Part shown: one piece after another, positions 42,549-53,922 of the stretch
Position numbering within the stretch: the stretch's first letter is position 1
Layout of the letters: the number at the start of each line of letters is the position of its first letter
DNA from: Anoxynatronum buryatiense
GTDB lineage: Bacteria > Bacillota > Clostridia > Peptostreptococcales > Tindalliaceae
Direction of reading: 5' to 3'
Length of the DNA stretch: 64,000 bases
NCBI RefSeq assembly: GCF_900182905.1
Contig: NZ_FXUF01000002.1
Coordinates: 248,001-312,000, forward strand
The notes under the pieces: generated by a model
Databases searched by the model: none
Told to the model about the DNA's origin: nothing
What the model saw: the letters and a program-made list of their open reading frames with translations, nothing else
Program-made: the position numbers and the translations under genes

Positions 42549-42597
42549 AAAAGCCCTTTAGGTGAACCGCGTCAGGTTCACCTAAAGGGCTTTTAAT
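42549..42597 (+). terminator. Very strong intrinsic terminator
   Basis: A perfect 20-bp stem: AAAAGCCCTTTAGGTGAACC (42549-42568) with its complement at 42575-42594, six-base loop, T-rich tail. It separates the DUF6544-like gene from the formate dehydrogenase operon and would stop traffic from both sides. Confidence 0.92.
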
Positions 42598-42696: not shown

Positions 42697-42725
42697 TTGA
42701 CGAACCGGGACAATATTTGTAAAAT
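42697..42725 (+). promoter_or_regulatory. Promoter of the formate dehydrogenase-rnfCD operon
   Basis: TTGACG (42697-42702) and TAAAAT (42720-42725) with a 17-base spacer, about 135 bases ahead of fdhE. No sigma-54 motif (GG-N10-GC) was found. No other gene lies in 42598-42859. Confidence 0.65.
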
Positions 42726-42859: not shown

Positions 42860-43699
42860 ATGCATCCATTATGGACAACAGCTTTTCAGGAAACTTGGGA
42901 TGATTGTCGGCGAAGATACGTTGATTTTAAACCTGTCGGTGAACGATTAAAAGAACTTCACTGTCAGGCCCGTCAATGGGACCAAAGTGAATCACTGCTG
43001 CAAGAAGATCATTTAAAAACACCGGTCATTGCCAGACAGTTTCCTGATTACTTCAAGAGGGTCATTTTGCCCGTATTTTCTCAGAATGAGGCGACAGCAT
43101 TGGCACTTGACGAGTTTGCCGAAGCAATGGATCAATGGCATCTGGAAGATCCCGGAGTAGAAACCCGGATTCCGCAATGGTTGCAACAACTGCAACAACA
43201 GGCCATGCATCTTTGCAAACCGATACAGCCTGATTTTGTCACACTCATCGTCTCCCTTTCCCTGGCACATCTTTATCGATCGATCCCTGCTGCTAAACCT
43301 GAAACGCCTGCCGGTGCGACGCAGTCAGGCGTTTGCCCGGTTTGTGGGTTGCCGCCCCACTTCGCAGCCCTGGTGGAAACAGAAGGGTACCGGCAGATGG
43401 AATGCTGGTTGTGCGGTGAACACTGGCCTTTTACCAGACTTGAGTGCCCTTATTGTGGAGAACATCACCCGGAGAAACTGGGGTATTTCACGGTGGAGAA
43501 AATGGAGGTATGTCGAATACATTTCTGTCACAGTTGCCAGGCATATTTAAAGGTTTTTGACACCAGATCACTGGCACTTAAAGATCCGTGTTTATGGGTG
43601 ATGCATCTGGCCACACTTATATGTGACGATCTGGCAGCTGCCGAAGGCTATCACCCAGGGTCTGAAATGGAATGGCATCAATGGATGGTAATGGAGTGA
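42860..43699 (+). CDS. fdhE: FdhE, formate dehydrogenase accessory protein
   Basis: A 279-residue cytosolic protein needed for maturation of exported formate dehydrogenases, a rubredoxin-like iron binder that interacts with the catalytic subunit before Tat export. Four cysteine pairs are present in its second half: SGVCPVCGLPP, ECWLCGEHW, LECPYCGEHH and FCHSCQAYLK. AAGGAGGGGG precedes the start. It is first in the operon with the Tat-exported FDH directly behind it, which is exactly its known role in FDH-N/FDH-O systems. Confidence 0.93.
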   Translation: MHPLWTTAFQETWDDCRRRYVDFKPVGERLKELHCQARQWDQSESLLQEDHLKTPVIARQFPDYFKRVILPVFSQNEATALALDEFAEAMDQWHLEDPGVETRIPQWLQQLQQQAMHLCKPIQPDFVTLIVSLSLAHLYRSIPAAKPETPAGATQSGVCPVCGLPPHFAALVETEGYRQMECWLCGEHWPFTRLECPYCGEHHPEKLGYFTVEKMEVCRIHFCHSCQAYLKVFDTRSLALKDPCLWVMHLATLICDDLAAAEGYHPGSEMEWHQWMVME

Positions 43700-43740
43700 A
43701 ACAACACAGGCGAAGAACAAACAGGAGGTGAAGGCAACGT

Positions 43741-46740
43741 ATGGAGGTAACCAGAAGACAGTTTCTAAAAGTCAGCGGGACAGCAGCTGCGGCAACGACG
43801 CTTTATGGAATTGGATTTCGTGAGGTGGCTCATGGGACTTATCGGCGGTTTCGGCTGCATTATGCCCATGAAGTCACCACCATATGCCCGTTCTGTTCGG
43901 TGGGGTGTGGCATTATTTGCCATGTGAGGGAGGGCCAGGTGGTCAATACAGAAGGTGATCCAGATCATCCCATTAACGAGGGCGCTCTCTGCAGTAAAGG
44001 GAGTTCTCTGTTGAACATGGCCTATGTGTACGATGAAAAAGGAAAACCGGTGCCGAATCCCAGTCGGGTTACCCAGGTACTCTATCGACGGCCGGGTGGT
44101 GCCGATTGGGAAACTGTGGATTGGGACTGGGCACTGAGAACCATTGCCGCCCGCATCAAAAAAACCAGGGATGATACTTTCATTACCCAAAACAGCCAGG
44201 GTGTTCCTGTCAATCGAACGCCGGCCATTGCCTGGCTGGGGAGTGCCATGTGCAACAACGAAGAAAACTATCTTTTTCATAAAATGACCCGTAGCTTGGG
44301 TCTGGTGAACATCGATCACTGTGCCCGTCTCTGACACTCCTCCACCGTCGCCGGTCTCGGCGCCACATTTGGCAGGGGAGCCATGACGAATCATTGGATC
44401 GATTACCAGCATTCAGATGTGATGATGAACATTGGTCTTAACACGGCAGAAAATCACCCGGTATCCATGAAATGGATTCAGAAGGCCAAAGACCGGGGCG
44501 GAAAGCTGATTTGTGTAGATCCCCGGTTCACTCGAACCGCTGCCATGTCAGACCTCTATGTTCCCATTCGTCCGGGAACCAATCTGGCTTTTCTCAACGG
44601 GATGATCCAGTATGCACTTGAAAATGACCTGGTGCATCATGAATATCTCATCAACTATACCAATGCCGCATATTTGGTAAATGAAGCCTATCATTTTGAA
44701 GACGGAATGTTCTCAGGGGCCCGGTTAATGGATGACGGTATTGGTGGAGAAAAAGTGGTGTACGACAGGACCACCTGGTCATACCAGTCAGATGAAGCTG
44801 GACAGGTGCTGTCAGATGAAACCCTGGAAGATCCCCGCTGTGTCTATCAGCTGATGAAACAGCATTTTCGCCGTTATGACCTGCAAACAGTCAGTGAGAT
44901 CATCGGCTGTCCGCTGGAAACACTACAGGCATGTGCCGCATTGTTCTGCAGCACCGGGAAACCTGAAAAAGCCGGCAATATTATGTATGCCATGGGTATT
45001 ACCCAGTTTACCCACGGGGCAGAGAATGTAAGAGCCATCGCTATTCTTCAGGCAATTTTGGGAAATATGGGACGACCGGGCGGTGGTGTCAATGCCCAGC
45101 GGGGACAATCAAATGTGCAGGGTTCCACCGATATGGCCATGCTGTACCATATCATCCCCGGGTATATGCCGGTACCCAGCGAAAGCCTCCATCCCACGCT
45201 GGAAGCTTATCATGCCACATCTCCCGGCGGATATTGGGCAAACCGGCCCAAATTTATGAACAGTCTGCTGAAAGCTTTCTGGGGAGAACACGCCACCCCT
45301 GGTAATGATTATGCTTATGATTATCTTCCCAAGATTGATAAAGAGCGGTCTCACATTGCCACTTCCAAATACATGGGAGACGGTGAGATCAAAGGAATGG
45401 TCTGCTGGGCAGACAATCCGGCGGTGGGCGGCCCCACAGCTGCACGCAAACGGAAAAATTCAGCCAAGCTGGACTGGCTGGTATCGGTGGATATTTTTGA
45501 GAATGAAACAGCCACATTCTGGAAAGAGCCCGGCGTTAACCCTGAAGAAATTGACACTGAAGTCTTTCTGCTGCCGGCGGCACTTCACATGGAACGGGAC
45601 GGGAGCATCAGCAACAGCGGCCGATGGATTCAATGGCGGTATGCAGCCGGTACCCCGCCGGGTGACTGTCATTCCGACCTTTGGATTGTTGACCGCCTGT
45701 TCCGGGCCGTTCGGGATGCCTATCAGGTGGATGGTGGCGTCTTTCCTGATCCAATTCTCAAGATGAACTGGGATTATGGCGAAGATGCTTCTTCGGCACG
45801 GGTGGCCATGGAAATCAACGGGTATGACACACGCACGGGGGAACTGCTCACCAGCTTTGCCCAACTGCAGGATGACGGCTCAACAGCCGCCGGATGCTGG
45901 ATTTATGCCGGCTATTATGCCAACGAAGAAGAACCTGCCTGCCAAAGGCGTATCAGGGAGACGGAAGGTGTGGGAAACCATCCGGAATGGGCCTATGCAT
46001 GGCCCATCAACCGGCGTATTCTCTATAATCGCTGTTCCGCAGACCCTGCCGGCAATTCCTGGAATCCTGATCTGCCGCTATTTCAATGGAACGGCAGTGG
46101 ATGGAACCGGTATGATGTGCCGGACTTCAATGCGGCTCTGTTGCCGGAAGAGTCTGCCCGCAACGCCTTCATCATGACAGGCGAAGGCAGGGCACGGCTT
46201 TTCAGTAATGGCATGGTGGAAGGGCCTTTCCCCGAGCACTATGAACCCTGGGAAAGTCCGTTGGCCAACCGGGTATCATCTGTTCAGTTTAATCCCTGTT
46301 CTACGGTCTGGTACCCTGACGACCGGGCAGACTATGCATCGGGTGCCTTCCCCCTGGTGGCCACCACCTATCGGCTGAGTGAGCATTATCAGACAGGTAT
46401 GATGACCCGGAATATGCCCTGGCTGGTGGAAACCATGCCGGAGCTCTTTGTCGAAATCAGTCCAACTCTGGCGGCGGACCACGGCCTCGTCAGCGGTGAC
46501 CAGGTGGTGGTTTCCAGCCAGCGTGGTGAGTTTCAGGCCCCTGTATGTGTGACGCCGCGGGTGAAATCATTTCAGGCGGGTGGTAAAACCATTGAAATGG
46601 TGGGGATTTTATGGCACTGGGGATATGCAGGACTTTCAAAAGGACCTGTCACCAATGATGTGGCACCTTCCATCGGCGATGCAAACACCACCATCCCTGA
46701 ATATAAGGCATTCCTGTGCCAAATCAGAAAGGTGGTGTAA
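43741..46740 (+). CDS. fdnG: Formate dehydrogenase-N/O-type catalytic subunit, selenocysteine-containing, Tat-exported
   Basis: One 999-residue protein read through TGA 44332-44334 as selenocysteine (residue 198). It oxidises formate to CO2 at a bis-MGD molybdenum or tungsten site. The Tat signal is TRRQFLKVSG near the N-terminus. The [4Fe-4S] motif is CPFCSVGCGIICHV with LCSKG behind it. The active-site context HCARL-Sec-HSSTVAGLG is followed by FGRGAMTNHW, exactly as in FdnG/FdoG. GQSNVQG and the C-terminal molybdopterin-binding part (VETMPELFVEISPTLA) are intact. A plain stop at TGA would leave two pieces, 43741-44334 and 44383-46740, both in the same frame. The protein should act outside the cytoplasmic membrane. 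Confidence 0.96.
44332..44371 (+). promoter_or_regulatory. Selenocysteine codon and bacterial SECIS hairpin
   Basis: TGA (44332-44334) is followed by a stem with CGCC and GGCG arms around the apical loop GGTCT (44353-44357). The loop begins 18 bases behind the TGA, the same distance and the same loop as I recall for the E. coli fdhF SECIS element. It should recruit SelB for selenocysteine insertion. selA, selB and selC are not in this window. Confidence 0.9.
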
Positions 46741-46743
46741 GGG

Positions 46744-47556
46744 ATGAAAAAATCCATTCTTATTGACACTTCCAAATGCATGGCCTGCCGTGCCTGTCAG
46801 GTGGCCTGCAAGCAATGGAATCAGCTGCCTGCGGATGAAACAACCTTCACAGGCACCTATGAAAATCCACCACGGGTATCGCCGGTCACCTGGATGCGCA
46901 TCACTTTTCAGGAAGAAGAAACAGATCAGGGGGTAAAATGGTTTTTTGGCAATCAGCGGTGCATGCATTGTACCGAAGCTGCCTGTGAAATCGTCTGTCC
47001 CGTGGGAGCCATCCATCATACCGATGCTGGAACCGTCGACATTGATTTTAACAAATGCATCGGATGCAACTATTGCGCTGCCAACTGTCCCTTTAAAGTA
47101 ATCAGCTTTGACCGAAAGACAGATTTGCCCACAAAATGCACATTCTGCTATGATCGTCTGGCCAATGGATACCAGCCGGCCTGTGCCAATGCCTGTCCCA
47201 CAGGGGCCATTACCTTTGGCGATCGTGGCGATCTCATTAATCGGGGCAGCCGGAAAGTGATGAGCCTCCAGGAGCAGGGAAATTCCAGGGCCACCCTTTA
47301 CGGACTGGATGAACTATCAGGAACAGGCATGCTTTTCATACTGGAAGATGTCCCCACTCATTATTATTTGCCGGAAAATCCTGTGGTATCACTGCAGGCA
47401 CGACTCTGGAGTCTGCTGTTCAGACCGCTGCGTATTTTTGTGGTTCTGGCCATGGGCCTGGGATTGTGGTCAAATTATCAAAAAAGCACTCAATTAAAGC
47501 GACGAATCATTCAACAGGAACACAGGAAGCCGGGTGCAGATGAGTCTGCAGGCTAA
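46744..47556 (+). CDS. fdnH: Formate dehydrogenase iron-sulfur subunit with C-terminal membrane anchor
   Basis: A 270-residue electron-transfer subunit with four [4Fe-4S] motifs: KCMACRACQVACKQW, RCMHCTEAACEIVCPVGAI, KCIGCNYCAANCPF and KCTFCYDRLANGYQPACANACPTGAI (in part). One C-terminal transmembrane helix (about residues 220-240, PLRIFVVLAMGLGLWSNY) matches FdnH/FdoH, which are anchored this way and carried out with the catalytic subunit. In FDH-N it passes electrons to cytochrome b556 (FdnI); no such gene is present here and rnfC follows after 21 bases. Confidence 0.94.
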   Translation: MKKSILIDTSKCMACRACQVACKQWNQLPADETTFTGTYENPPRVSPVTWMRITFQEEETDQGVKWFFGNQRCMHCTEAACEIVCPVGAIHHTDAGTVDIDFNKCIGCNYCAANCPFKVISFDRKTDLPTKCTFCYDRLANGYQPACANACPTGAITFGDRGDLINRGSRKVMSLQEQGNSRATLYGLDELSGTGMLFILEDVPTHYYLPENPVVSLQARLWSLLFRPLRIFVVLAMGLGLWSNYQKSTQLKRRIIQQEHRKPGADESAG

Positions 47557-47577
47557 TGAATCAAAGGAGGTGACATT

Positions 47578-48900
47578 GTGAAAGCCAGAACCTTTCAGGG
47601 GGGTGCGCACATCCCCCATTACAAGGAATATACTGCACATCTGCCCATACAGCCGATGGCCATTCCCGATCATGTGGTGATACCACTGCTCCAGCATTTG
47701 GGAGAAGCCAATGAATCGCTGGTAAAGCCGGGAGATCGGGTCAGGGTGGGAGATAAAATTGGCGACAGTGATGGTTTTTTCTGTGCACCCGTACACGCCA
47801 GCATCAGCGGCGTGGTGGAAGCTGTCGATATGTTCCCCTGTTATGCAGGCGGCGAACGGTTGGCCATTAAAATTCGAAGAGAAGGGGAAGAGCAGTCATT
47901 TGCGATTACCGATCAAATCAATCCCAGTGAACAGACACCGGAGGAATTACGCCGGATGATTCGCGAAGCAGGCCTGGTGGGAATGGGGGGCGCTGCCTTT
48001 CCCACTCATATCAATATCAGTCCCCGGTCTCCCGTGGACACCTTATTAATCAACGGAGCGGAATGTGAACCCTTTCTCACCTGTGATCACCGGCTGATGC
48101 TGGAGCGTTCAGATGATTTGATTGCCGGAGCAGTTATTATGATGCGTTGCATTGGGGCCAGCCGTTGCTGCATTGGGATCGAAACCAATAAACCGGATGC
48201 CATTGAGTTGTTGAAGGAAAAAACAGCCGGAAGGAACGATTTTGAAATTGTACCGCTGGAAGTCAAATATCCCCAGGGCTACAAGTCACATCTCATTAAA
48301 GCAGTGACAGGCAGAGATGTTCCCCGGGGTGCCCGTTCTGCAGATTTGGGGTGCGTGGTACGCAATGTGGGCACCACAATTGCCGGGTATGAAGCCGTGG
48401 CATTGGGCAAACCGGTCATTGAACGGGTGGTGACTGTCAGTGGTCCAGATATTCCACAGCCTGGCAATTTCACGATGCGCATTGGGACACCTGTCGATTT
48501 TATTTTGCAGCAATGTGGTGTTTCCAAGACAGATGGTTACAAAATAATTTTGGGGGGACCCATGACCGGAGTGGCCCAGGAAACTTTGACATCCTCCATT
48601 GTCAAAAGCACAACAGGTGTGTTGGTACTACCCGCAGAAATGACATATGAAGAGGAAGCTTTCACCGACTGTATCCGCTGTGGAAAATGTGTTGAACATT
48701 GTCCCATGATGCTGTATCCCAACCAGCTGAGCGTTTATGCCGAAGCGGAAATGATGGATGAATTGCTGGAATGGAATGCGATGGACTGCATGGACTGCGG
48801 CATTTGCGCTTACTTATGCCCTGGCCGGCGACCCATTGCCGATATGATTCGCCGGGTGCAGCCGGCGCTGAAAAAGAAACAGCAGAAAAAAACCGGATAG
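47578..48900 (+). CDS. rnfC: RnfC, NADH-binding subunit of an Rnf-type complex
   Basis: A 440-residue peripheral subunit on the cytosolic side. The N-terminal barrel part has RTFQGGAHIPHYKEYT. The NADH/FMN region is GLVGMGGAAFPTHINIS, INGAECEPFLTCDHRLM follows, then an SLBB-like segment. Two [4Fe-4S] motifs close the protein: DCIRCGKCVEHCPMML and DCMDCGICAYLCPGRRPI. It starts at GTG 47578 with AAGGAGGTGA upstream. In whole Rnf operons rnfC is followed by D, G, E, A and B; here only rnfD follows. Confidence 0.94.
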   Translation: MKARTFQGGAHIPHYKEYTAHLPIQPMAIPDHVVIPLLQHLGEANESLVKPGDRVRVGDKIGDSDGFFCAPVHASISGVVEAVDMFPCYAGGERLAIKIRREGEEQSFAITDQINPSEQTPEELRRMIREAGLVGMGGAAFPTHINISPRSPVDTLLINGAECEPFLTCDHRLMLERSDDLIAGAVIMMRCIGASRCCIGIETNKPDAIELLKEKTAGRNDFEIVPLEVKYPQGYKSHLIKAVTGRDVPRGARSADLGCVVRNVGTTIAGYEAVALGKPVIERVVTVSGPDIPQPGNFTMRIGTPVDFILQQCGVSKTDGYKIILGGPMTGVAQETLTSSIVKSTTGVLVLPAEMTYEEEAFTDCIRCGKCVEHCPMMLYPNQLSVYAEAEMMDELLEWNAMDCMDCGICAYLCPGRRPIADMIRRVQPALKKKQQKKTG

Positions 48901-48914
48901 AAAGGAGGATGTAC

Positions 48915-49901
48915 ATGGAACAGCAACGACTGGTCATAACACCGGCGCCGCATTTGAAATCTGGAGAAAGTGTGGGCAAAGCCATGAGAGACACGATGAT
49001 TGCCCTGGTGCCTGTCACACTGGTGGCCGTCTATTTCTTTAAAGCTTATGCCATCTTTCTCATAGTTGTATGTATGGGAACGGCGGCATTGACCGAAATC
49101 GCATTCCGGCGCTTCAAACATCAGCCTCACCGTCTGAGAGATGGCAGCGCTCTGCTGACGGGTTTGTTTGTTGCCCTGTGTTATTCGGCCACCACTGCCT
49201 GGTGGAAGGGGGCACTGGCCACCTTCATCGCTGTTGGAGTCGCCAAGGAACTGATGGGTGGTTTGGGATGGAACCGCTTCAACCCAGCTCTTTTTGGGCG
49301 CGTAGCCATGATTCTGCTGGGCCCCTGGTTTGTGGACATCGGCACTGAGTTCATGCGTTGGAACGTCAATTTTGGTCCGGTGGATGTGATGACCCATGCC
49401 ACACCGCTGGCCATGCTTCACCAGGGATTGGAAATGCCGGCGGTGGGAAGTCTGTTTTTGGGATTCCCCGGCGGTGCCATGGGAGAAGTTTCACCCCTGG
49501 CGCTGCTTATTGGCGGCGGTTATCTCCTGTATCGAGGTCATATTAACTGGCGCATTCCTGGCTCCATTTTGTGTACGGTTTTTGTTTTGGCAGCCATCAC
49601 CGGCCAGAACCCGTTCTTACACTTGGTGACGGGCGGGTTGATGCTGGGTGCGTTTTTCATGGCGACTGACTGGGTGACCAGTCCCATTACCGAAAAAGGC
49701 AAGGTGGTCTTTGGAGTTGCCATCGGTGTATTGATTGTTGTCTTCCGAATTGGATTAGCGCCAACAGAAGGGGTGGCTTTTTCCATCCTGATCATGAACG
49801 CATTTGTCCCCACCATTGAAAAAATGACCCGCCGTCTTCCTTTCAGCGAACCCCGAAAAACAGCGGCGAGACACATCACCCTGCCAGAATCAAATATCTG
49901 A
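48915..49901 (+). CDS. rnfD: RnfD, membrane subunit of an Rnf-type complex
   Basis: A 328-residue membrane protein of the NqrB/RnfD family with about nine to ten helices. It begins VITPAPHLKSGESVGKAMRDTM and contains ALLTGLFVALC, GVAKELMGGLGWNRFNPALFGRV (in part) and GGAMGEVSPLALLIGGGYLL. The covalent FMN site of RnfD is the Thr of VMTHATPLAML. AAAGGAGG precedes ATG 48915; a longer frame from 48771 lies inside rnfC. It is the last gene of the operon, with terminators just behind, so RnfG, E, A and B are absent here. Confidence 0.94.
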   Translation: MEQQRLVITPAPHLKSGESVGKAMRDTMIALVPVTLVAVYFFKAYAIFLIVVCMGTAALTEIAFRRFKHQPHRLRDGSALLTGLFVALCYSATTAWWKGALATFIAVGVAKELMGGLGWNRFNPALFGRVAMILLGPWFVDIGTEFMRWNVNFGPVDVMTHATPLAMLHQGLEMPAVGSLFLGFPGGAMGEVSPLALLIGGGYLLYRGHINWRIPGSILCTVFVLAAITGQNPFLHLVTGGLMLGAFFMATDWVTSPITEKGKVVFGVAIGVLIVVFRIGLAPTEGVAFSILIMNAFVPTIEKMTRRLPFSEPRKTAARHITLPESNI

Positions 49902-49997: not shown

Positions 49998-50030
49998 AAC
50001 AACCCTGTATCGCAACAGGGTTGTTTTTAT
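49998..50030 (+). terminator. Intrinsic terminator closing the fdh-rnf operon
   Basis: AACAACCCTGT (49998-50008) pairs with AACAGGGTTGTT (50014-50025), followed by more T. It separates rnfD from dcd. Confidence 0.85.
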
Positions 50031-51773: not shown

Positions 51774-52127
51774 ATGGACAAAGCAAAAATGCAAACGTTG
51801 GCCTGTGCCGTTGCAGGTGTCATGATCACCTGGTTTATTAACCATCAAATGGGCTACGGCGCCATCATTGCCAATGGCATGGTGGGCGTGGTGGCTGCGG
51901 CCTTATTACCTGCTCCTTTGGCAGGTGCCACTTATACGGCTTCTTTTGTCGGTATGTCAGGCCTGGGAGTCATTCCATCCTTTTTCGCATCTCTGGTGGG
52001 TGGCGTTGTGGTTGGATTGGTACTTGCGTACACTCCTGAAATTTACGCCGGGATCGGCGGCAAAGGTGGAACCACAGCAGCATTGTCGGCGCATATCACC
52101 CGGGCAATTATGAACCTTTTCAGTTAG
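51774..52127 (+). CDS. Small Gly/Ala-rich membrane protein (117 residues), paralogue of the next gene
   Basis: A 117-residue membrane protein with three to four hydrophobic segments. Landmarks: AGVMITWFINHQMGYG, GVVAAALLPAPLAGATY, TASFVGMSGLGVIP and YAGIGGKGGTTAALSAHI. The order AG..(Y/W).I...MG.G, .AS(F/Y).GM and (Y)xGxGG(K/R) is shared with the protein at 52138-52545, so the two look like diverged duplicates that could form a heteromer. Unknown function. GGGGGAG precedes the start. Confidence 0.75.
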   Translation: MDKAKMQTLACAVAGVMITWFINHQMGYGAIIANGMVGVVAAALLPAPLAGATYTASFVGMSGLGVIPSFFASLVGGVVVGLVLAYTPEIYAGIGGKGGTTAALSAHITRAIMNLFS

Positions 52128-52137
52128 GAGGAGTACC

Positions 52138-52545
52138 ATGGAAGCTGTGATCATTTTACTTATATCAATTTTTGCGGGAATGGCAGCCTATTATATTTCT
52201 GTCGTGATGGGTAAAGGTGGCGTGTTTGGATCCGCAGTGGTGACGTTGGTGGCGGGAGTACTCTTTCGTTATCTTGAGGTGGAAGGGATCATTGGGATCA
52301 CTGGGCTGGCAGTGGTGGCTACCTGTGCCAGTTACGCAGGCATGGTGGCCCAGAAAAATGTGGCCAACCTGAAAGAAATGGCAGTGGTGGGACTTTTTAC
52401 AGGCGCGTTGTATATTGCCGGAGGCACTACTTATGTGGGTGTGGGTGGAAGATTAGGGGTGATAGCAGCCATTGCCTGTTATGCATGGATTGGTTTGAAA
52501 AAACTGACCGGCAAGGGATTGGAGGCACCAAAAGCCAATTACTAA
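52138..52545 (+). CDS. Small Gly/Ala-rich membrane protein (135 residues), paralogue of the previous gene
   Basis: A 135-residue membrane protein with about four hydrophobic segments. Landmarks: IFAGMAAYYISVVMGKGG, VTLVAGVLFRYLEVEG, TCASYAGMVAQKNVANL and TTYVGVGGRLGVIAAIACYAW. Conserved positions match the 117-residue protein upstream (MGxG, ASxxGM, GxGG). It begins 10 bases behind it with AGGAGGAG. Function is unknown; position next to an Mrp cluster suggests an ion-related or envelope role, but two terminators and a new promoter separate the two units. Confidence 0.75.
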   Translation: MEAVIILLISIFAGMAAYYISVVMGKGGVFGSAVVTLVAGVLFRYLEVEGIIGITGLAVVATCASYAGMVAQKNVANLKEMAVVGLFTGALYIAGGTTYVGVGGRLGVIAAIACYAWIGLKKLTGKGLEAPKANY

Positions 52546-52713: not shown

Positions 52714-52765
52714 AGGTTGTGGTAGGTGTGAATGAAAAAATCAACAGATAATCGGGGTGTTTTCA

Positions 52766-53272
52766 GTGTCTGACCCATCAGAAAGTAAAGTGAAGTATTA
52801 TGGAATTCCTTTCGTGCTCTTATTTGGCTTCTGGCTGATTCTCTCTCCTGGCATTTCCGCTCAAACCGTTTTTTTGGGTGGTGCTGTGAGCCTGTTGGTG
52901 GTGATCTATTCCAAAGACCTGCTCTTTCATGAAGATGAAATGCCATTATATCGTTTAAAACATTTTTTAAACATGATGCACTTCATTGGAATCCTTTTGG
53001 TTGAAATTGTCAAGGCTAATATTGATGTGGCGAAAATAGTGCTTAATCCAGCGCTGCCCATTAAACCTCAGTTTATTAGGGTGCCTATGATGCTGAAAAA
53101 TGATATGAACAAAGTTATTTTTGGCAATTCGGTAACGCTGACGCCGGGCACACTGACAGTGGATATAGATGAAGATGGTTTTATCATCCATGCACTGACA
53201 GACGAAGCGGCAGAAGCCATGAAAGACAGCTTTATTGAAACCTGGGTGGTCAGACAGGAGGAAAGCGAATGA
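52766..53272 (+). CDS. mrpE: MrpE-like Na+/H+ antiporter subunit E
   Basis: A 168-residue subunit with two N-terminal hydrophobic segments (GIPFVLLFGFWLILSPG, FLGGAVSLLVVIYSK) and a cytosolic C-terminal domain. MrpE features: IGILLVEIVKANIDVAKIVL, NKVIFGNSVTLTPGTLTVDI and a closing FIETWVVRQEE. GTG 52766 is chosen since GGGGTG lies seven bases upstream; GTG 52757 overlaps that site. Its stop overlaps the next start (ATGA). Confidence 0.92.
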   Translation: MSDPSESKVKYYGIPFVLLFGFWLILSPGISAQTVFLGGAVSLLVVIYSKDLLFHEDEMPLYRLKHFLNMMHFIGILLVEIVKANIDVAKIVLNPALPIKPQFIRVPMMLKNDMNKVIFGNSVTLTPGTLTVDIDEDGFIIHALTDEAAEAMKDSFIETWVVRQEESE

Positions 53273-53532
53273 ATACTGCCTTTATCGCCACATCCATTGG
53301 GTTGGCACTTTTGACTTTTTTCTGTCTTTACAGAGCTTATGCAGGTCCCACGGCGGTTGACCGGGTGGTGGCCATCAATGTGATTACCACCAAGGTGGCG
53401 ATGCTGATTGCACTGCTGTCCATCATCACTGGTCAGGAAATTTTTGTGGATGTGGCACTGATCTATGCCATGATGGGATTCATCGCCACTATTTGTGTGT
53501 CCAAATATATTGAAAAAGGGAAGCTTTATTAG
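53269..53532 (+). CDS. mrpF: MrpF-like Na+/H+ antiporter subunit F
   Basis: An 87-residue membrane protein with three helices. The MrpF signature YRAYAGPTAVDRVVAINVIT (residues 22-41) is clear, followed by IYAMMGFIATICVSKYIEKG. The start overlaps the mrpE stop. A terminator-like hairpin lies between this gene and mrpG. Confidence 0.93.
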   Translation: MNTAFIATSIGLALLTFFCLYRAYAGPTAVDRVVAINVITTKVAMLIALLSIITGQEIFVDVALIYAMMGFIATICVSKYIEKGKLY

Positions 53533-53543
53533 GATAATTGATG

Positions 53544-53574
53544 AGTTGAGGGTCTGACTGACGCTCAACTTTTT
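53544..53574 (+). terminator. Terminator-like hairpin inside the Mrp operon
   Basis: AGTTGAG (53544-53550) pairs with CTCAACT (53564-53570), followed by TTTT and GC. It sits in the 75-base gap between mrpF and mrpG and may attenuate or process the message; all other gene junctions in the operon are tight or overlapping. Confidence 0.55.
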
Positions 53575-53607
53575 GCAGCATAAATAGGCCACCCGGGAGG
53601 ATTAAAA

Positions 53608-53922
53608 ATGATTCAGAATGGACTAATTGTGATACTACTTGTTGGCGGTATCTTCTTTTTTCTGGTGGGTACGATGGGCTTACTGCGTTTGCCCGATGCA
53701 TTTACGCGAATGCATGCCACCACAAAATGCGATACATTGGGAGCAGGGCTGGTACTGGTGGCACTCATTGTACACCAGGGTTTTCACATGATCAGCCTGA
53801 AGTTGCTGGTCATTCTTGTTTTCATCTGGATCACCAATCCCACGGCGGCGCATATCATTGCCAAAGCAGCCTATCACTCTCAGGAAAAACCGTCGGAAGT
53901 AAAAGTCATGGGAAAGGAGTGA
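53608..53922 (+). CDS. mrpG: MrpG-like Na+/H+ antiporter subunit G
   Basis: A 104-residue membrane protein with three helices. The MrpG pattern is GTMGLLRLPDAFTRMHATTKCDTLGAGLVL (in part), then LLVILVFIWITNPTAAHIIAKAAYH. GGGAGGA precedes the start. It is followed after 7 bases by the DUF4040 gene. Confidence 0.94.
   Translation: MIQNGLIVILLVGGIFFFLVGTMGLLRLPDAFTRMHATTKCDTLGAGLVLVALIVHQGFHMISLKLLVILVFIWITNPTAAHIIAKAAYHSQEKPSEVKVMGKE

Follow-up and report, generated by a model that had tools for sequence, protein, structure and literature searches.

Membrane-bound formate dehydrogenases of the FDH-N/FDH-O type (FdnGHI of E. coli, 1KQF) combine a Tat-exported, selenocysteine-containing catalytic subunit (FdnG) with a four-cluster iron–sulfur subunit anchored through its C terminus (FdnH) and a cytochrome b (FdnI) that works with quinone. 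Their active site lies outside, and the inward passage of electrons makes the reaction electrogenic. In the Rnf complex (A. woodii, 9ERI; C. tetanomorphum, 7ZC6), electrons travel from the FMN of RnfG to the FMN of RnfD, then to riboflavin, RnfC and NAD+ (PMC12174285, PMC11889175). Two further systems are pertinent here: the CISM enzymes with an NrfD or cytochrome b anchor (Phs/Psr, Dms, Nar), which join a molybdenum subunit and a four-cluster subunit to an exchangeable membrane module, and MetVF–RnfC2 of A. woodii, in which an RnfC-type protein has been recruited as the NADH module of another enzyme (PMC8578096).

The Anoxynatronum buryatiense operon described here resembles each of these systems in part. 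Like FDH-N/FDH-O, it encodes an exported selenocysteine FdnG and an anchored four-cluster FdnH, and we propose that it shares their outside active site and electrogenic inward electron transfer, with RnfD–RnfC and NAD(H) replacing cytochrome b FdnI and quinone. Like Rnf, it has RnfD and RnfC with their cofactor residues kept, but it lacks RnfG/E/A/B, the ferredoxin site and the RnfA/E ion gate, and its outer partner is a formate dehydrogenase. In contrast to Phs/Psr, Dms and Nar, the membrane module is an RnfD/NqrB-family flavin protein and ends in an NAD(H) subunit, whereas MetVF–RnfC2 is soluble, lacks RnfD and does not span the membrane. FdnGH–RnfCD is neither an Rnf complex (no A, E, G or B) nor an FDH-N (no FdnI), and in its working it would be a hybrid of both. 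Going by sequence, we think it quite probable that the operon specifies a reversible, electrogenic formate(out):NAD+(in) oxidoreductase in which FdnGH would be seated on RnfD–RnfC instead of a cytochrome b. No earlier description of such wiring was found in the open-access literature, and an earlier report elsewhere is possible.

The window, a 64,000-nucleotide stretch of the A. buryatiense genome, carries at positions 42860–49901 five same-strand genes (fdhE, fdnG, fdnH, rnfC and rnfD; Table 1) whose neighbors are separated by 6–44 bases, with AAAGGAGG preceding the rnfD start at 48915. The original prediction of a one-strand unit with short gaps, closed by terminators, is borne out by coordinates, profile matches and hairpins, and the absence of fdnI and of rnfG/E/A/B that it described holds at the locus. 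Promoter-like sites in the promoter region are not commoner than in shuffles, and the candidate listed in Table 1 is hence suggestive only. In most relatives, as here, fdhE precedes fdnG. Farther downstream (51774–52545) lie genes for two small, apparently hydrophobic proteins of 117 and 135 aa with no Pfam match, just upstream of three short open reading frames (52757–53922) that resemble the tail end of an operon for an Mnh/Mrp-type antiporter.

Table 1. Features of the fdhE–rnfD operon and its flanks, in window coordinates
Feature	Position	Strand	Evidence
Hairpin terminator of the upstream unit	42549..42597	+	20-bp stem; 71-nt stretch at -38.8 kcal/mol; z -7.8 vs shuffles
Weak sigma-70 promoter candidate for the operon	42697..42725	+	10/12 consensus matches
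fdhE, FDH accessory protein	42860..43699	+	TIGR01562, E 1.3e-14, under cut-off
fdnG, Tat-exported catalytic FDH subunit	43741..46740	+	TIGR01553, 1109 bits vs cut-off 814
In-frame TGA, most likely selenocysteine, residue 198 of FdnG	44332..44334	+	open frame requires TGA=U
fdnH, Fe-S subunit with four clusters, membrane-anchored by its C terminus	46744..47556	+	16 Cys, hydrophobic tail
rnfC, FMN/NAD(H) and 2x[4Fe-4S] subunit	47578..48900	+	TIGR01945, 487 bits, over cut-off
rnfD, membrane flavin subunit	48915..49901	+	TIGR01946, 252 bits, over cut-off
Terminator 3' of rnfD	49998..50028	+	10-bp inverted repeat AACAACCCTG/CAGGGTTGTT, then five T, read directly

With respect to the dehydrogenase itself, FdnG carries an N-terminal Tat signal (TRRQFLK), and full-length alignments pair it with E. 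coli FdnG (1KQF_A) as well as with D. vulgaris FdhA (6SDR_A). Its in-frame TGA is most likely read as selenocysteine, because relatives show either TGA or Cys at the position of residue 198 and because two other molybdopterin genes of the same genome are likewise read through one TGA. The fold of a putative SECIS following the fdnG TGA was no better than that of shuffles (not significant), and the assignment therefore relies on the Cys/TGA pattern in relatives. FdnH aligns to E. coli 1KQF_B with the anchor included (E 5e-53); its AlphaFold model is of low confidence (pLDDT 54), and no geometry was drawn from it. The exported Sec/Cys catalytic subunit and the anchored subunit with four [4Fe-4S] clusters are those of FDH-N/O. 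A cytosolic NAD-dependent or bifurcating enzyme would instead have a cytoplasmic FdhA and NuoE/F-type partners, as opposed to the Tat signal and the FdnH/RnfCD partners seen here. A candidate formate dehydrogenase with a NuoG-type N-terminus is encoded elsewhere in the genome. As for CISM enzymes, the catalytic and four-cluster subunits are both present, and a membrane anchor is present only if RnfD is counted as such.

The usual electron outlets of FdnH were sought throughout the A. buryatiense genome (4.16 Mb, rated 99.8% complete). Neither FdnI-type cytochrome b (PF01292) nor NrfD (PF03916) nor a UbiA prenyltransferase (PF01040; controls positive 14/14) was detected anywhere in it, so that a cytochrome b or NrfD with quinone is unavailable to this FdnH. 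A pairing FdnI encoded elsewhere would have undone the original prediction, and neither FdnI nor NrfD turned up. The genome also lacks a FocA-family formate channel. Tindallia californiensis, the nearest cultured relative in the literature, is listed as having no cytochromes or quinones (PMC8578096). The supposition of a quinone-poor host thus fits A. buryatiense, which has no UbiA, but does not extend to many of its relatives: a UbiA-type match was found in 16 of the 22 carrier genomes tested, being absent from A. buryatiense, both Tindallia MAGs and G306. The notion that all carriers are quinone-free was accordingly rejected, and the UbiA-type genes of so many relatives, which may have quinones, count against a formate:NAD wire.

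RnfC and RnfD of the window retain the cofactor residues of their Rnf counterparts. RnfC has all 8 cluster cysteines and an intact flavin motif, GxGGAxFP, as in an Rnf RnfC with two [4Fe-4S] clusters, FMN and an NAD site, and both features are conserved across modules, the motif with Leu for Phe in two rows. A. woodii RnfD binds covalent FMN and riboflavin via T156, N123 and D249 (PMC11889175), which correspond to T163, N123 and D252 in the window protein; all three ligands are kept in 31 of the 32 RnfDs from comparable modules (see below), the remaining one having Ser for Thr. The RnfD model (pLDDT 81) finds its best match in A. woodii RnfD (9ERI_D; Z 37.7, 288 residues, rmsd 3.0). The RnfA/RnfE [2Fe-2S] gate, RnfG and RnfB are missing beside C and D, both here and in the 31 other modules. 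Nor does the locus fit Na+-NQR (NqrA–F with a quinone site), as RnfC has kept its clusters and no NqrC–F homologues are present. A longer RnfD loop before the FMN-bearing Thr was considered as an FDH-specific mark and rejected, as its lengths overlap those of some Rnf RnfDs.

Five RnfD/NqrB-family genes are present in the A. buryatiense genome. One belongs to a complete, separate rnfCDGEAB operon (L006) with a C and a D of its own; the question of a full rnf operon elsewhere, raised at the outset, is thereby answered, and this Rnf is complete without the window genes, which speaks against RnfC and RnfD merely completing it. Another closes a tatC–TorD–PhsA–FeS–RnfC–RnfD cluster. In this cluster (L007:4393-10488, G000:C2:334393-340488), a TorD-like chaperone, a Tat-exported PhsA/PsrA-like reductase and an FdnH-like Fe-S protein precede rnfC and rnfD, tatC lies upstream, and there is no NrfD or cytochrome b. 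A divergent rnfC–rnfD pair (L008:7535-9840, G000:C5) stands without FDH or further rnf genes, and a few kb from it are genes for an FMN_bind/FAD_binding_2 flavoprotein and for a second, small protein with FMN_bind. An nqrB-C-D-E-F-like cluster without nqrA (L009:7976-11893, G000:C1:372976-376893) also occurs in this UbiA-less genome. Similar clusters are found in relatives of the class (L106–L109, L135); the second RnfD matches at L106–L109, considered as further modules, proved to be such NqrBCDEF-like clusters and were rejected. In G202, an Nqr-like B-C-D-E-F cluster follows a distant RnfC/NqrA-like gene with 27% identity to the window RnfC (L125:1731-7251).

The distribution of the arrangement was followed with FdnH and with RnfD. 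An FdnH scan of 84,980 species genomes yielded 80 loci, at 21 of which fdnH occurs together with rnfC and rnfD. These belong to Tindallia, Syntrophomonadaceae, other Bacillota and four Actinomycetota, and several carriers come, going by isolate names, from soda-lake sediments. An independent RnfD survey within the phylum (398 genomes) showed a sharp divide: all matches with at least 49% identity to the window RnfD adjoin an FDH or PhsA-type module, while the fetched matches below 49% all sit in rnf operons (11/11). In total, 32 modules were collected, comprising 28 FDH–RnfCD loci and 4 in which the FDH is replaced by PhsA-type subunits, either the pair or its Fe-S member, one of the 4 being in A. 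buryatiense; rnfG, E, A and B are nearby in none of the 32. The 28 FDH–RnfCD loci, from Bacillota and Actinomycetota, show the orders GHCD (17), CDGH (5), CDH with fdnG apart (5) and GHDC (1), a variety that argues that the four genes stay together by function. A lack of conservation outside this genome had been named as a refuting outcome, and the neighborhood is in fact kept in two phyla; its recurrence at 28 loci of different genomes places the arrangement beyond chance. The soda-lake organism 'Ca. Syntrophonatronum acetioxidans' is reported to have RnfC, RnfD, two RnfG genes and no A, E or B, together with an exported FDH (PMC6295475); going by this published gene content, its RnfC/RnfD set could be a further FDH–RnfCD module.

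In three genomes (G223, G370 and G597), the sole full-length FdnG over cut-off lies on another contig with no FdnH nearby, while fdnH remains with rnfCD. This displacement indicates that FdnH–RnfCD is the conserved unit. It also bears on the idea that FdnGH passes electrons to an unknown extracellular carrier, with RnfCD separately taking NADH electrons out to extracellular acceptors, for which the divergent rnfC–rnfD pair among FMN-binding flavoproteins (L008) offers some precedent. Given that FdnH stays with RnfCD also in genomes whose fdnG lies elsewhere, and that no other membrane partner for it was found (no PF01292, no NrfD), we allow this idea only the slimmest of chances. Genes for an Fe-S protein, RnfC and RnfD in G264 (L142:7633-10883) follow a leucyl-tRNA synthetase gene and have no adjoining catalytic molybdoenzyme gene, an observation that counts against the formate:NAD wire.

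A complete Rnf is also present in nearly all carrier genomes, A. buryatiense included, and in principle RnfC and RnfD of the FDH operon could be spare or alternative subunits of it, their adjacency to FDH being regulatory or accidental. We regard this as highly improbable, as the rnf operon already supplies a C and a D, and the linkage of the module proteins to FDH or PhsA-type genes holds in all 32 cases and in several orders. They also form a lineage apart. In a tree that included 32 Rnf RnfDs and 7 Nqr-like proteins for comparison, all 32 module RnfDs make up one clade (100/100 support, branch 0.4), and in the RnfC tree the Rnf RnfCs all fall on one side (99/94), with a hydrogenase fusion, itself at odds with a spare Rnf subunit, on a very long branch. 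PhsA-linked copies are nested within FDH-linked ones, from which it follows that the outer enzyme was swapped at least once. In the FdnH tree, those from RnfCD loci fall to one side of a modestly supported branch (76), with good support (97) for the Bacillota set.

The clade has residues of its own. RnfD E112 is found in 32/32 module proteins and in 0/32 Rnf RnfDs, which have Q, H, A or G; with the hydrogenase fusion omitted from the counts, RnfC C169 occurs in 30/30 module RnfCs versus 5/32 from Rnf, and T330 in 30/30 versus 2/32. These differences are also pertinent to a super-complex in which FdnGH and the module RnfCD would join RnfG/A/E/B of the rnf operon as an ion-pumping formate:NAD or formate:ferredoxin enzyme. 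RnfA/E are at hand in nearly all of the genomes, and under standard conditions formate has greater reducing power than NADH; still, this appears very unlikely in view of E112, C169 and T330, of the lack of rnfG/A/E/B at all 32 loci, and of FdnH, which would itself fill the outside role of RnfG. On the same point, the coexistence of Rnf in nearly all carriers may weigh against a dedicated formate:NAD wire, subunit exchange appearing possible from the sequences.

An exchange of parts at the inner end is seen in G306, where a 1007-residue protein is [FeFe]-hydrogenase in its N-terminal half and RnfC in its C-terminal half. From the RnfC half, GxGGAxFP, ECEP and GGPMTG, and with them the FMN/NAD motif, are gone, but all eight cluster cysteines have been kept; the fusion adjoins RnfD, an Fe-S subunit, PhsA and a TorD-like chaperone, and the module (L144:9543-17216) is a candidate H2-driven outside reductase. 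Loss of the FMN/NAD motif with retention of both Fe-S clusters points to an electron path from an exchangeable inner donor through the RnfC clusters and RnfD to the outer Fe-S protein and outer enzyme. Because RnfD–RnfC is thus paired also with a PhsA-type reductase and, at the inner end, with an [FeFe]-hydrogenase, it may be viewed as a general adaptor for electrons between outside and inside. On balance, we think it likely that RnfC–RnfD of this clade are a third general membrane module for extracytoplasmic molybdoenzymes besides cytochrome b and NrfD. It would be a flavin wire joining outside chemistry (formate/CO2, sulfur compounds) to NADH inside, or to H2 via the hydrogenase–RnfC fusion, and would be powered by, or build, the membrane potential with no quinones, hemes or ion pump.

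For the formate dehydrogenase of A. buryatiense, the proposed path would begin outside, where formate would exchange electrons with the Mo/W–Sec site and Fe-S of FdnG, and these with the four [4Fe-4S] clusters of FdnH, held to the membrane by its own helix. FdnH, in the role of RnfG as the outside partner of RnfD, would communicate with the covalent FMN and then the riboflavin of RnfD across the membrane, and RnfD in turn with the two [4Fe-4S] clusters and FMN of RnfC and with cytoplasmic NAD(H). An outside-formate:NAD+ wire through FdnH, RnfD and RnfC, as first predicted, is supported by the lack of FdnI and NrfD, the complete separate Rnf and the conservation described above. Two electrons per formate would traverse the membrane, which would render the reaction electrogenic with no ion pump involved. 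Oxidizing formate on the outside would build a membrane potential, whereas a high potential would drive NADH-dependent CO2 reduction to formate outside, with no need of a formate channel; the potential would set the direction of the reaction.

In terms of energetics, a simple calculation places the formate and NADH couples 112 mV apart under standard conditions, formate being the stronger reductant. With assumed concentrations, 10 micromolar formate near pH 7.5 gives a gap of ~15 mV, whereas 0.1 mM formate with pH 9.7 outside and 8.3 inside gives one of ~130 mV. A potential above gaps of this kind would reverse the flow, which makes NADH-driven CO2 reduction outside no less plausible than formate oxidation. 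Formate cycling by an outside FDH is described in Syntrophus with menaquinone (PMC8805022); in FdnGH–RnfCD, NAD(H) is proposed in the place of the quinone. With respect to ion movement, RnfA/E are the Na+-coupling site of A. woodii Rnf, where RnfD is reported to carry electrons and not Na+ (PMC11889175), while other groups favor RnfD/NqrB as the ion path (PMC12174285). As RnfA/E are absent from the module, a Na+ pump is unlikely; the suggestion that the enzyme might pump ions in the manner of Rnf is not upheld, and charge separation by the electrons would alone suffice for energy coupling.

The separability of RnfCD from Rnf means that partial rnf sets in draft genomes may represent an FDH–RnfCD module instead of pointing to an Rnf Na+ pump, and RnfCD without RnfA/E offers a natural test case for RnfD versus RnfA/E as the ion mover. 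If the proposed reading is correct, quinone-free, heme-poor anaerobes would swap electrons between NADH and extracellular formate, with the membrane potential pushing the exchange or being harvested from it. This would bear on how, with no formate channel involved, syntrophs and soda-lake fermenters produce or consume the formate that carries electrons between species.
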